Assembly: GCA_002749535.1 (NCBI GenBank)
Contig: MZZL01000401.1
Location: 1,059,165 to 1,123,164 of the forward strand
Length of the DNA: 64,000 nt
Direction of reading: 5' to 3'
Source of the DNA: Apophysomyces variabilis
Lineage: Eukaryota > Mucoromycota > Mucoromycetes > Mucorales > Mucoraceae
The notes under the pieces were generated by a model that made no database searches, was not told the DNA's origin, and worked only from the letters and a program-made list of their open reading frames with translations. Shown in pieces: positions 54,292 through 63,237 of the stretch; the stretch's first letter is position 1; the number at the start of each line of letters is the position of its first letter. Made by a program: the position numbers and the translations under genes.

Positions 54292-55500
<1,209 letters not shown>

Positions 55501-56472: not shown

Positions 56473-56689
56473 GGTATATCAGCAAAAGGTGTGTGACAGT
56501 CAAGAACTCGAGCGTCTACTCATAACCTCTAAGCCACTAGCTTTAGAGTCCATGTGCTTGTTCTCCGACTGCATGCGAATCAGCTACTGGTTTATTCAAA
56601 GTTTTTAAAGATTTCATCCAAAATTGTTTGAAGATTTGGATATAAAAGTTATAAAGAATTTTCCAACAACTGTTAGTGATTATCCTCTT
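56473..56689. ncRNA. Candidate region for a Fanzor guide (omega) RNA
   Basis: In described Fanzor and TnpB systems the guide RNA is encoded at the 3' end of the nuclease gene, overlapping or directly after it. Here that corresponds to the space between the Fanzor tail and the start of the UTP16-like gene. I see AT-rich sequence with short stems only and could not define an RNA boundary. This entry marks a place to look, not a proven gene. Confidence 0.15.
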
Positions 56690-56869
56690 TTAAAACGTGA
56701 TAATGAGCTTACTGGTGTGCCCACCTGCGAAAGATAAACGTTAGTAAAACAATTCTAACTAGAAAAATTGACTAATACACTTACCGTAAAAATCTAAACC
56801 CTTTCGGGTCCCGTATTTAGCGATGATTTGTGTCGGCCGGCGGAACGCGTGCGGGCGCCCATGGCCGTT

Positions 56870-59525
56870 TTATATAGATTGAGCAATGTAGAACATATTC
56901 TTGCTTGCATTAATATCACGATTCCATCGCATTCTACAGGTTTTGCAGTCTTGAATGCCATGGTGTTTGATACCGTCTTCAGTAACCACATTGCATAAGC
57001 TCTTCGTTTTGAACTTGTGACAAATCTATTTGTATTTCATACTCAGTCAAGCATGGATGAAATAACATTGCCTCAGTTACCTGTGATGTGAGGTACTCGT
57101 CTATCTTCACTACAAGCACCTCGCCACGAGCCTCGCGTCTCTTCAAAATCCTCCATAATTTGTTAACGGCCGCTTTTCGATGTCCTTTGTATCTGCACTT
57201 GTCCTTCCCAAACATCCCCGTCCCAAATACAAACAATGGCATCTTTCCATTATTATCCGGATTTGGTTGGGATTGCTTCCAGCTTCTGGCTCGACGGCTT
57301 TCATTTACTGTAGAACGCACGGCAGATAATGGCTGTTCGGGTATCCTATCATTGTGGGAATAATTAGTACTTTTATCCTGATATTTGTTCCTTTAACACC
57401 TTCCAGTGTTCATCTTCTTGTGCCTTCTACGCTGCTCGCGATTCTTCTTCCGTTTCTTTCGGTTTGCACCACGATGTTTCCGTTTGCGATAGTTGTATTT
57501 ACGGCGTCTGTCTATCAAAATATTTGCCAACTCTTCTACCGCTCGTTGCCTGCCTTGATGGTCGCGGCACCGCCTCTCTCGGTCATTTGGCCCGTAGAAA
57601 TTGAATAACACATCTTTGTGCAGGAAAAAGTAATCCACTCGTCCATTGTATTTGCGGATATCGCATGTTTTTGCACTTGGAAAATTACTCTCGATGGTAT
57701 CAATGCCCTGATGTCGTTTTTGTTTCAGTAGCTGCTGACCCCTTTGAGGCGACCCAGTCATGCAGTAATACTCTGCAGACGAACAGCGGCGGATTTCATG
57801 CTCTGTTTCACCAGCACCATATGACGCAGTATATAGATGCCGCACGCCAGGGTCAATCCCACACACACGATAATATCTGTTGATGTCCTCAGTGATAAAA
57901 TCTTCGAGTTCAAGCTCAACTGTGTTAAGCTTTGCACTGCGAGCAAAGTGAAAAACAACACTAAAACCGTCCGTGCAGATTTCATTTGTGAACGTTCCGC
58001 AATTCATGCTAAAAGTGATGCTTAGCTTTCGTACATTATTCTCAGATAATAGGTAATTGACCTTCGGAAGCCGTACTTGTTCAAGTCAAAGACTTGGTTA
58101 AAAATCTCCAAGTTACCTTCATAGTCGTCTGTATCGTTTCTGACTTGAACCAACGCCCTCAATGCCTTTGCATTAATGGTGACGAAGCGAAAGTGAAAGG
58201 AAGGTTGAGGGGCTAATGAAAACAGCCTAGGCAAATTGCCTGATTCCTCGTCGTCGTTCTGTTGGTGCTCTTGCTCGTACATCTCTACTATAGCACGCAA
58301 TACAGGGATACATACCCCAGGTCGTTCCGATAAAGCCTCGAGAGTGCACGTTTGGGGCATCAAGGAAATAAGAAAATCACGGAGGTTAACAATTGCAAGG
58401 AATAGGTCGAAGGACGCATTTTCCAAGCATGAGGGCCAAGCTGGCTCACCGCCGGCAATGCTTTCGTACAGATAATCATACGTGATCCGATTTGCAGACG
58501 ATTTAGATAGATCCTGCAGTGGGAAACAATAAGAATGTCATTGAATCAGGCATATAAATTTCTGTTGTGCTGCCTTACTGGAACAAGCATTTGAAGCCTA
58601 TGAATGATGAATCCGCAAACTCTCTGTTGAAGATTTTCAACAATGTCGTTTGTATAAGTATCTCGCAATGTCTTGCAAGCCGCAGAAAGAGCATCACTGT
58701 ATCCAGTGAAGTTGTTTCTCGGGAAAACAATAGCAGGATGCCGCTCGCGAAATTGATTCCAAAAATCATAAATGTTGTCTGGCATATGAGGATTGGTGTG
58801 CGTCACAGAGATATTCATCACCAGTTGTGCGATCGAATACCAAAAGTTTTGCGAGTACAGATACACTGGGATTTCTCTCTGGCTATATTCGATTATATAT
58901 GCATTGACAAAGAATTGCATTCGGATTATAAGGTTGCGCATGAATTCCGATAAAGACGTGATGCGACTTTGCAAGAGAATTGCGTACTCTGGACGGACGA
59001 AATTTTGAAACGGTATTTTTCGTGAAAATCTTTCCACTTCGTTCCCATATCGCGCTTGTATTTCTTGTTTAATCGTACGGTTCCGGCGTTGTCGACGAGC
59101 GGCATCAGGCTTCGCGTTCAACGCATCCCTTGAGGTACGCCCTTTCTTTTTTTCAGCCTTCTGTTCTTCTGTGTCAACCTCAGTTGCTTTTCGTTTTTTC
59201 CCAACTGCAGTAAAGTATCAGAATCAGTGTGAAATTATCGGGCGTTAGTAAGAAGATACTGACCTCGTTTATATGATCCATGAAGGCGACATTTCTTACT
59301 TGTCTTTAGTTTATGGCCGTGTTCACCACAATGAGGACAAGCAGCTTTCAAGTTCAATTTAGTATGGCTTTACGACAAACCTTTGCTTTTGGCCTCCTCT
59401 TCTTTTTGAAGCTTTTCTGCCTTTTTAAATGTTGCAAATAGCAAAGGTGGATAGACTAATATATTTATTGAAATGAAAAGAATCGATAGAAAGTTTACAA
59501 AATCGTAAAATAGGGAATCAGTCAT
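56870..59525 (-). CDS. Fanzor: eukaryotic TnpB-type RNA-guided nuclease
   Basis: Predicted OMEGA-type nuclease. I read eight exons, about 763 aa; the core exons are 59264-59345, 58579-59204, 58062-58513, 57400-58008, 57081-57345 and 56870-57025. The proposed N-terminus (MTDSLFYDF plus a basic NLS-like KRQKSFKKKRRPKAK) uses two very short introns and is less certain. A zinc knuckle C-x2-C-x4-H-x7-C follows (CPHCGEHGHKLKTSKKC), then helical guide-binding parts. RuvC-I is CGIDPGVRHLYTAS (Asp codon 57852-57854). FVFGTGMFGKDK and the acidic VVKIDEYLTSQ (57093-57101) precede the ribbon and probably supply the Fanzor-type Glu. RuvC-III is RWNRDINASKN (Asp 56915-56917). The zinc ribbon is ICHKF ... 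CKTC: one Cys is Phe. A TAA (56870-56872) ends the frame; tail-like sequence (NGHGRPHAFRRPTQ) continues in frame beyond it. Confidence 0.8.
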
Positions 59526-60990
59526 TGTGGAGAACGATTGAAGGGAAAGAGAAAGGAAAAGCAAAAGTAGACTTAAGAAAAAGGGATTATATTCTCGTTT
59601 GTCAAAATCATTGTCTTCTGTGACTGAGTACGAAGTAGGTTTTGCGTTCGACAACATTTCGTTTTACACCCCATTCATGTGTACCTATGATTTGGAACCC
59701 ACAGTTTTGCCAAACTTCATCTATTGCACAAGTGGTGAAAATGGATCCAAATAAAAACAATATAACGGTCAAAGTTAGAGAAATCGCATAGGAAGATGCG
59801 GTATGTGGTGCCTCGTATCGGGAACAATTGCTTGACTGCCGAAGAGAAGGGAGCAATCATTTGACGGCCACTGTCAGTAAGGTTTCATTTGCCTGATTTA
59901 GGAGGATGTACCAGTGTGTATGAGATCAGAATGAATTCATCTAGAGATGATACAGGTATGATGTGTCATTCGTGGTCATCATCTGCTCAAAGAAGGGCCA
60001 TTGATACTATTCTTTGTACACTCATTGTTAACTTTACCACTAAAATATGAATTAATCGTTGTTTTCACTAGAAAGAACAATCAAACTTTCCTTGATATGC
60101 ATTCTGGATCGCACTTTATAAACAAAACAGGATCATATTTAATGGAATTTTTGAAGCCTTTCATTTTCTAATTTTCTGTCACTTATTGTTGTAATGACTG
60201 ATTACGCCATGAATAGCGGTCCCAAATAGGAAGTGCTACTCTCATTTGTTGAACACAGAGGGGCAGCTATGGATGAGACCTCACGTATTGAGGAAGCTGA
60301 TATGGTAGAATGGTCAAAAGTTCCGTGATTATTTTGTTCGTGACAAAATCAACAGGATATTGAGAACAAGGATCAGATGGTTGGGGAACCATGGCTTGCT
60401 TTAAATTTAACGTAAGCCTCCATAAGATGTGTTATAGAATTAGCCGAAAGTAGAAAGTAGAAGTAGAATTGACAGCCAGCTATTTAATTAGTCCGCGCTT
60501 AGGAGAATAAAGAAGAACTCTTTTTCAGCTGTATCAATTCTGACCCTGGAATTGTAGCCCTATTATCCTCTACTACGATCCTAATCTAGTAGTCAATAAA
60601 CAGTATGTCTCGATGTAATACTCAGTAATTCGAACTATTTACGTTGAAAATTACTACTGAGTTTGTTTTGTTATTGTAATTGATGTATTTGATAAAGTTC
60701 AACCTTTACTTACTGTCTTTCCATACATCATACAGACATCTGGCGTTTTGCATTATACAAACAAAATCGGCTACACTGTTTTTGGTGATATTTTCCAGTA
60801 TTCTCAACTGTTTTAACCACTGGGTCGTTTAGAATTATCTTCTAATTAGTAGGATGGTTATCTATGACTTTGGGATGTAGTTGCACTTACACTCTTTTCG
60901 GAAAGTAATTCGCCCAGTGATGAGAACAAAATTCGGGTTGCACGAAAAGCAAATTCGCGCTGGTGGAAAATCAGTTCGGCTGATCGCGAG
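59526..60990. other. Non-coding region between Fanzor and the DIRS element
   Basis: 1.5 kb without a recognisable gene. Minus-strand frames at 59608-59856 and 59370-59657 contain hydrophobic stretches but no family signal. No terminal inverted repeat matching the other side of the Fanzor gene was found by eye. Confidence 0.4.
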
Positions 60991-61031
60991 TCATCTAGTT
61001 GATGTGAGCGAGCCTGAAGATGTGGTTGGCT
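60991..61031 (+). repeat. 41-bp inverted repeat, left arm
   Basis: Perfect reverse complement of 61259-61299. Read on this strand it encodes HLVDVSEPEDVVGFP followed by a stop, the same peptide as the end of the recombinase on the other strand. So it is a second, oppositely oriented copy of that 3' end. Confidence 0.9.
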
Positions 61032-61199
61032 TCCCATAGCCGCGCCTGATTGGCTTGTTTATTCTCAGAATTAAATAAATTACTCTATTTTTCTCTTCAG
61101 CCTTCCGAAAGCAAGTGTGTGAGAGACATTCTTTTCGCCTATCTGCTCTGGGTGGGGAAAAAACACAGGAAACAAGTTGACTAACAAACTTTAAAAAGC

Positions 61200-63237
61200 T
61201 TAAGAAAATAAAAAGGAAAACATGTCACGGTCAAAGAAACGAGATACCCAGGGTCGGGAGCCAACCACATCTTCAGGCTCGCTCACATCAACTAGATGAT
61301 TGTGAGGCGTACCTATCACAACCCCCGTTGATGCTCGCTCACCCTCCGATGTGGTTTCCTTCTCCGTAACCGGCGAAAAGATGGCTGTGGTAATGCTTGC
61401 TCCTCGTTCGTGTTGTCTTGATGGTTTTAAGTAATATTTTTCTAAACTATCAGTCTTCAAGCTCCAATTCGCATGTAATTTCACTGTCTTAATAGGAACT
61501 CCTTGGATAACTGCCTTGGTTGCTGCTGCTGCTCTCACTGAATGAGGTTTATATTTGCTTGTGTCTATGTTGGCTTCTGCCACTATTTTCTTGATCCAGT
61601 TTGCTACCGTTTGTGGCTTGATTTCAATTCTCTTAGTTGGCTTGTCTATGTATCCCAGAAAGAACGTGTGTGTATCATCCAATTTCTGAACTCGTATTCC
61701 ATCCACTATATGTGTTTCTCGAATTTTCCTGTTCTTTCGATGAATGCCAATGTCGTAGCTACCGGACATAACTCTCGGTCTTGGACAGGTCCCAAATTTG
61801 ATACCTTTGCTTGGCTCTCTTTCGGTTCTCTAATGATCAGAGAAATACCTTTTACTTCTCCTTTCTTATCCCGTACAACCCGTACGTCTCGAAACTGTAG
61901 TCTACCGAGGTCTGAACGTATTCTCCACATCGTTGCTACGGCTAGTACAACCAACGTCTTTAATTGCAGCTTGTCAATTTTTAGAAACTCTGTCGGACCC
62001 CATCCGCGCACGGTCTGTAGTATCTCCTCTACATCCCAAATCTCTTCAGTGGTATTCGGAATCTTGAACTCTAATCGTTTTGCAGATTGAAACACTGCAT
62101 GAATCATAGGTTGTCTGCCTAGATTGCCCTTTACAGGTTCCAGTTCTCTGAACACCGTTCCCAAGGCTGCTCTGATCGTGTTCATATAAGATGTCGAAAC
62201 GCCATTTCTTTGTAGGTAGTATAAAAATTCAGCAATTCTTTGGATATTACATTCTCTTGGGTCTACCGGTGTAACTCTGTTTACGCACCATTCTGCCCAA
62301 CGTCTCCATCCGCCGTCATAAGTTCGTCTTGTACTCGCGCGAACTTGGCCTGCTAAAAATTCTTGCATTTCCGTCGTTACACCCTTCTTTTCTTGGCTTT
62401 CCCTGATAAGCGCCATACGATTAAAGACAATTTTTGGGAAATTCTCATTGTTAATGCCTTGGTCCTTGTCATTTGCAACACCATCGGCCACCAAAATTGG
62501 GTCGGCCAATTTGGGGTCACCAGTATCGCTGAGTGTACTTGATCTGTCTGAAATTTCCGTAGAACCGCTGGTATCAATTTCCAAGGGGGATATAGATATA
62601 ACCCCTTCGCTGGCCATTTCTGTTGGAATGCATCCGTTGCACTCGCTTCCGGATCCACCTTGTAACTCCAATAATGAGGTAGTTGATGATTGTGACGGGC
62701 TCCAAAAGCATCTATTGTCATCTTCATCTTCGGCCACGTCTTCTTGATCTTCTGAAACGCCCATTTTGGCAATTTGTCCTCGTAGACTGGCCTGGAGAAG
62801 CGACTGAGCCGATCGGCCACTACGTTCTTGATTCCCGGAATGTGTCTGTATTGTACTGTCAGATTTGTGTTTGTTGCAAATTTCCTGGATTTCTATCGCC
62901 AAAATCTGGAGCTCGCGAGATGCTGTTCCGCCTGCTCGAAACGCGTATTTTATTGCGGTTATGTTGTCTGACATCACCAGGATGGTAGCATTTTTGTATC
63001 TTTCGGCATGGATTTGCTATGCAATCTTTATCGTTATCAGTTCCCGGACGTTGGTGGACAATCTTTGTTCTTTTGGGTTCCAATATCTCGCCGTGGATAC
63101 CATCGGAGAGTAAACTCCCCATCCCGAGTTCGACGCATCGATCGAATGCGACGCAACGAGAACAGAAAGCGGCAGTATTGCATGGACAACGACAGGAAGC
63201 AGATCCTCCACATCACAAACACGTGTCCGTCAAGACG
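61200..63237 (-). mobile_element. DIRS-type retroelement: RNase H and tyrosine recombinase, 5' truncated
   Basis: Order on the minus strand: RNase H-like start (DASNSGWGVYSPMVSTARYW, 63020-63170), SDNITAIKYAFRAGGTASRE, ADRLSRFSRPVYEDK, then LPHYWSYKVDPEASATDAFQ, LYLYPPWKLIPAVLRKF and VTPNWPTQFWWPMV, the pattern of the reverse-transcriptase/RNase H C-terminus of DIRS elements. In an overlapping frame the recombinase begins near TRRTYDGGWRRWAEWC. Its catalytic residues are seen as MWRIRSDLGRLQF (Arg), KPHSVRAAAATKA (His-x2-Arg) and HANWSLKTDSLEKYY (His/Tyr). A frameshift near 61710-61740 splits the recombinase, and the reverse-transcriptase palm is absent, so this copy is inactive. The overlap of the two frames is normal for DIRS. 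Confidence 0.82.
61259..61299 (-). repeat. 41-bp inverted repeat, right arm
   Basis: Partner of 60991-61031; the loop between the arms is 227 bp. It lies within the recombinase C-terminus (HLVDVSEPEDVVGSRP). Inverted repeats near the 3' end are a structural feature of DIRS elements, though a simple local inversion-duplication would look the same. Confidence 0.9.

Follow-up and report, generated by a model that had tools for sequence, protein, structure and literature searches.

The window (the whole 64,000-nt stretch of Apophysomyces variabilis DNA analyzed here, positions 1059165–1123164 of contig C87) carries on its minus strand a seven-exon Fanzor1 gene, situated in the remnant of a transposable element with ends of the Tc1/mariner type. 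Splice sites were deduced from reading frame and homology. The features are as follows.

56585..60895, minus strand: remnant of a Tc1/mariner-type element (terminal inverted repeat, TA-bordered), family A; 4.3 kb, with the 5' end and the 5' terminal repeat missing beyond 60895
59525..56870, minus strand: Fanzor1 gene of family A; seven exons giving 777 in-frame codons, then TAA
59381..59525, minus strand: candidate exon 1; ATG, hydrophobic stretch of about 20 residues, KK, charged helix; joined in frame to exon 2
59264..59344, minus strand: exon 2; zinc knuckle CPHCGEHGHKLKTSKKC, CPHC starting at 59339
58579..59204, minus strand: exon 3; N-terminal helical region
58062..58513, minus strand: exon 4
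57400..58008, minus strand: exon 5; RuvC-I, GIDPGVR from 57860, catalytic D at 57854..57852
57081..57345, minus strand: exon 6; IDEYLTS, alternative RuvC-II glutamate at 57098..57096
56870..57025, minus strand: exon 7; zinc ribbon with Phe for the second Cys (57013..57011), D of WNRD at 56917..56915, TAA at 56872..56870
56725..56784, minus strand: putative 3'-UTR intron of 60 nt (GTAAGT ... CTAAC ... CGCAG)
56585..56724, minus strand: candidate omega-RNA scaffold, by analogy with SpuFz1; ends at the element border, so that a guide would start at 56584
56585..56666, minus strand: 3' terminal inverted repeat, ending in ACCAG followed by TA; 76% over 84 columns to the 5' repeat of copy L030

Once five introns of 53–65 nt with GT..AG ends are removed, 737 codons lie between stops (59369..56870). 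Adding the exon that begins at ATG 59525, across an intron of 36 nt, brings the frame to 777 codons, so the coordinates proposed in the initial annotation fit. This first intron is short; copies L011–L016 and L019 have 10 extra bases there that are missing from L010, L017 and L020, and the region is absent from L018 and L021. The coding status of exon 1 itself is uncertain, pN/pS being about 1 among copies. All elements by which the gene had originally been recognized were found: the zinc knuckle, a helical N-terminal region, GIDPGVR of RuvC-I, IDEYLTS, WNRD and a multi-exon frame exceeding 700 codons. Sequence comparison reveals similar zinc-knuckle N-termini in relatives from Mucor and Parasitella.

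A database search with the window protein returned a single Pfam family above cut-off, PF07282 (E 1.9e-8), and no match in NCBIfam. At least nine relatives were retrieved (7995 candidates scored; best E 6.3e-152), the best among the matches listed being from Apophysomyces ossiformis, with 64% identity over 57% of the query. From their organism names, the nine listed relatives are presumably all Mucorales. The Pfam score, these relatives and the ten other copies described below exclude a chance match. When the window protein was searched as a single sequence against the PDB, nothing scored below E 0.18; a profile built from P0004 and relatives (17 sequences), however, matched the solved Fanzor1 structures SpuFz1 (E 2.3e-9) and GtFz1 (E 3e-5), aligning the glutamate of its DE[FY], which corresponds to that of IDEYLTS in exon 6, with DEYKTS of SpuFz1. 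The predicted structure of P0004, a relative 31% identical to the window protein, has a pLDDT of 74.2 and a pTM of 0.68. Its top seven PDB matches are all Fanzor1 chains (SpuFz, PpFz and GtFz; E 8e-21 to 3e-17), so that the comparison with the REC, WED and RuvC parts of solved Fanzor1s concerns this relative rather than the window protein. Profile and model together back the original description of an intron-containing Fanzor (TnpB-type) nuclease gene, and we conclude that the window gene is a Fanzor1 gene whose fold class is assigned through its relatives.

The motifs agree with this assignment. The window protein has the DPG and, six residues before the first zinc-ribbon Cys, the displaced glutamate (DE-YLTSQI-C) that are given as a Fanzor fingerprint in passages of PMC10711439. 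The gaps between the D and TS (236) and between zinc ribbon and RD (5) both fall inside the Fanzor motif as stated in PMC3627910. The C4 zinc ribbon plus RD is incomplete: the window copy reads CHKF...CKTC...RD, with Phe at the second Cys, and CHKC is present in each of the ten sisters that can be read there.

Element ends, sister copies and a transposase element with similar ends

Ten other near-full copies of the element are present in the genome, with matches of 2.4–2.9 kb at 88–97% identity, together with fragments. These matches end at 56584–56591 and extend up to 60810–60895, some with internal gaps. Sisters whose 5' end was fetched run up to about 136 bp further and reach a terminal repeat mirroring that of the 3' end. 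The missing 5' end of the window copy was sought in the window as far as 64000 and was not found. Genome-wide, the terminal repeat pattern gave 91 matches, against 0 for the reversed control. Of 54 right ends, 49 could be anchored on a border TA by script, as could 32 of the 61 left ends (the window copy retains the right end only); the TA is putatively a target duplication.

Two neighbors of the element may be mentioned. Beyond 60895, a different repeat family (window 60991–63016) adjoins the break of the Fanzor element; it contains 44-bp internal inverted repeats and a weak, below-cut-off match to a tyrosine recombinase (PF00589, E 3e-5). On the other side, at 54795–55154, lies a piece of a zinc-binding dehydrogenase gene (PF00107, E 5.7e-17) that probably belongs to the host. 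The product of a neighboring host gene is matched best, at 52%, in Phycomyces nitens, followed by Umbelopsis and others, which points to a Mucoromycota host, probably of the Mucorales, with no close relative in the database searched.

An element with similar ends and its own transposase exists in the same genome. L091 is 1.6 kb long, has terminal repeats 78–79% similar to those of L030, and contains a 473-codon ORF with DDE_3 (PF13358, E 1.3e-23) and HTH_Tnp_1 (E 1.1e-7) domains. Eleven copies of at least 1.5 kb are 92–100% identical. Six of the transposase copies (C86, C95, C94, C43, C59 and C35) lie 5' of family-B Fanzor copies, forming composites of roughly 7 kb. The transposase of L091-type elements may mobilize the Fanzor elements in trans.

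Different nucleases on shared ends

The outer parts of the family-A element, namely 1.5 kb at the 5' side (to 59368, in intron 1 of A) and 0.2 kb at the 3' side (from 56798, the stop codon of most family-A sisters), recur at 84–92% identity in a second family (B) that encodes another Fanzor in its central part. Copy L049 of family B has seven exons and an open frame of 867 amino acids with DPG, DEY, CHSC..CKNC and RD; its protein and that of the window share 40.7% identity over 806 columns. At least nine B places, L049 included, are 99–100% identical over the full query (C94, C93, C86, C95 twice, C87, C89, C43 and C41), and at least 20 more are at 91–97% over 1.7–3.2 kb, both counts coming from 40 of 108 candidates scored. 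A relic of exon 1 of A is retained in B, with a stop within it in eight of the ten copies read, which suggests that the gene of B replaced that of A. Further families, represented by L092, L144 and L145, use the same ends. In the 38.7-Mb genome as a whole, PF07282 has at least 73 matches with E up to 0.001 (150 of 164 candidates scored), and at the eight best places (L001–L008) the DNA does not match the family-A region, which shows that the genome contains additional Fanzor families. In contig C41 (88400–97211), a family-A and a family-B copy stand head to head (L020 and L033), the terminal repeat of A meeting B at the junction that the transposase element occupies in other B copies.

A first exon that combines a hydrophobic run of some 20 residues with KK and a charged helix occurs in three Fanzor families (window 59381–59525; L092, about 1400–1530; L144/L145). 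Block shuffles reached the score of the observed likeness in 0 of 2000 cases for families A and C, 5 of 2000 for A and D, and 65 of 2000 for C and D. Purifying selection on this exon was sought among the copies through pN/pS and gave no signal, the pooled ratio being 1.13 within family A and 0.97 when A is compared with B. With these ratios, and with the first exon of B itself insufficiently hydrophobic, the exon was rejected as an established membrane anchor. Among the papers listed for Fanzor and transmembrane segments, titles and abstract openings mention no membrane-anchored Fanzor.

Left-flank motif and 3' end of the element

The two flanks of the Fanzor elements differ. A total of 61 left and 54 right ends were fetched, and 32 and 49 of these, respectively, could be anchored on TA by script. 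The dinucleotide RC precedes TA at 26 of the 32 left ends and at 2 of the 49 right ends (Fisher p 2.4e-13). Among held-out left ends, 5 of 15 were anchored by script and four of the five had RC. A count by eye, which takes in ends where the script misplaced its anchor and covers 43 of the 61 Fanzor-element left ends, found RC before TA in 3 of 6 for family A, 11 of 15 for B, 5 of 6 for composites and 15 of 16 for the others; the remaining 18 comprise damaged left ends, ends lacking a border TA and ends that could not be located, and they include L140, which contradicts the motif. At ends of elements carrying the transposase only, RC was present in one of five. This set leaves out L112, which is truncated, and the two ends of C81 (L114, with AC before TA, and L115, with GA), because the right flank of C81 matches the body of a B composite; with C81 included the figure is 2 of 7.

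In SpuFz1 elements, a conserved CA precedes the left repeat and the TAM is CATA, according to passages of PMC10432273. By analogy, the TAM of the Fanzors studied here is predicted to be 5'-RCTA. Doubt over this prediction stems mainly from the weak signal in family A and from the small transposase-only control. There is a real, if lesser, chance that RC before TA has no link to a Fanzor TAM and instead reflects the target choice of the transposase or forms part of the element end. A shared transposase would more easily explain why nucleases only about 40% identical, those of A and B, go with one motif; the control comprises just five ends, one of the excluded C81 ends does read AC, and in principle the RC might be element sequence. 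Against this alternative, the bias is confined to one end although the terminal repeats are inverted copies of each other, and the mixture of A and G at position -2 within one family is more what a preferred target would give than an inherited sequence. C precedes TA at one of the five counted transposase-only ends, whereas it does so at all six readable outer ends of transposase-plus-Fanzor composites (seven fetched, one truncated). The SpuFz1 precedent likewise argues for the TAM.

A guide RNA from the 3' end of the element is plausible by analogy. The last 140 nt (56724–56585) are kept in families with different nucleases, and this stretch would fit the omega-RNA lengths of 75–150 nt reported in passages of PMC11423790. 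Because the element border is at 56585, a scaffold is possible only upstream of that position. The putative intron at 56725–56784 sits just past the stop codon of most sisters and directly before the would-be guide-RNA stretch. In a strict scan of 37 ends, an intron-like stretch was present in 13, the window copy included; seven of the 13 are family B, and in L017 the stretch lies elsewhere.

Searches for structure in this region were negative. The consensus fold of 32 sequences (9 pairs, -2.79 kcal/mol) had one pair with two-sided change and gave no covariation support, and a conserved omega-RNA structure was dropped as a candidate. Rfam had 0 matches over the whole window and the tRNA search found none. 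The guide RNA that the initial annotation had placed in 56473–56900 can thus be narrowed to a candidate scaffold at about 56724–56585 with a guide reading from 56584 down, whereas the covariation analysis brought it no support. One might take the element for a relic whose 3' end is merely a terminal repeat, the omega-RNA never having been made and the Fanzor acting guide-free or in some other role. The lack of a detectable conserved fold would fit, as would the units of about 22 bp that differ in number between copies inside the would-be scaffold. We nevertheless judge this improbable: the 3' end is conserved while the nuclease differs, and the biochemically described Fanzor1s SpuFz1, GtFz1 and PpFz1 use an omega-RNA, as passages of PMC10432273 and PMC11423790 relate.

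A broader proposal, speculative and on balance doubtful, is that the fixed ends, the 3' guide-RNA module and the RCTA TAM act as a chassis on which Fanzors are exchanged, A having given way to the 41%-identical and apparently intact B with borders in intron 1 of A and at the stop codon of most A copies, and that several Fanzors gained a membrane-tethering hydrophobic N-terminal exon.

Decay, overall reading and known systems

The window locus is a decayed Fanzor1-bearing copy. Its TAA lies 26 codons ahead of the tail ends of most sisters, and Trp occupies that position in 11 of 11 readable copies. Every one of the ten near-full sisters shows one or more frameshifts or stops in its exons when read in the frame of the window copy, which is itself free of frameshifts by construction, the frame having been taken from it. 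Values of dN/dS between the window copy and 11 others (L021 left out) range between 0.46 and 0.65, with a median of 0.68 for 66 pairs, in keeping with past constraint on the sequence followed by neutral decay.

The initial annotation had leaned toward an OMEGA system possibly still expressed. Considered as a working system or as a nuclease domesticated by the host, the window copy could draw on those dN/dS values, and on its being the only one of 11 near-full family-A copies with all seven exons open to the final stop (in frames derived from the window copy); but the 5' end with its terminal repeat is lost, the stop is early and the zinc-ribbon Cys is gone, and we regard a working or domesticated copy as very improbable. 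A standalone or domesticated gene was moreover rejected, the copies being dispersed and bearing terminal repeats rather than confined to a single locus.

Altogether, we favor, with a probability of about 0.8, the reading that the locus is a decayed, non-autonomous Tc1/mariner-type Fanzor1 transposon, which in its living state would have been moved by a transposase, guided by RNA, directed to RCTA and capable of homing. In the cycle that we envisage, the DDE transposase would act on the shared terminal repeats and move the element into TA sites. The omega-RNA would be made from the 3' end of the element, its guide read off the right flank. Fanzor and omega-RNA would then recognize the reconstituted empty site through the left-flank motif (TAM 5'-RCTA) and cut it, and repair from a filled copy would retain or spread the element.

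The genome offers a test of the role of Fanzors in transposition, as decayed and young families occur on the same ends alongside a transposase element with similar ends. The RCTA prediction is drawn from insertion flanks alone, and for such work the elements of family B are preferable to the window copy. Should the nuclease indeed have been exchanged while the 3' end was kept, compatibility between scaffold and nuclease would be directly testable.

Among known systems, the closest likeness is to SPu-1/SpuFz1 of Spizellomyces punctatus, also a fungal Fanzor1 in an element with terminal inverted repeats, putative TA duplications and a conserved dinucleotide ahead of the left repeat; it is the RuvC and zinc-ribbon part of SpuFz1 to which the family profile aligns. 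SPu-1, as passages of PMC3627910 and PMC10432273 describe it, is about 2.1 kb long, with a single ORF, repeats of 30–33 bp and TAM CATA, whereas the element studied here has 4.3 kb, seven exons, imperfect repeats of about 80 bp and a predicted RCTA, and shares its genome with a transposase element whose ends are similar. PpFz1 of Parasitella parasitica belongs to the same fungal order, judged by the relatives, and is matched by the P0004 model (9cf1, E 9.3e-19); features described as its own are a TAM of ATN and a cyclophilin-binding insertion in RuvC. PGv-1, PUl-1 and PUl-4, in the relevant parts of Bao and Jurka 2013, are similar in being Fanzor-only elements with mariner-family terminal repeats and TA duplications, and some there carry a transposase. 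The Mucorales Fanzor elements that appear in those parts are MuDR-like where classified, MCi-2 being unclassified, whereas here several Fanzors are associated with Tc1/mariner-type ends in one genome. In conclusion, mariner-type elements that carry Fanzor1 and have TA duplications are known already, as passages of PMC3627910 document; what the present elements add is a testable TAM prediction and a possible exchange of nucleases.
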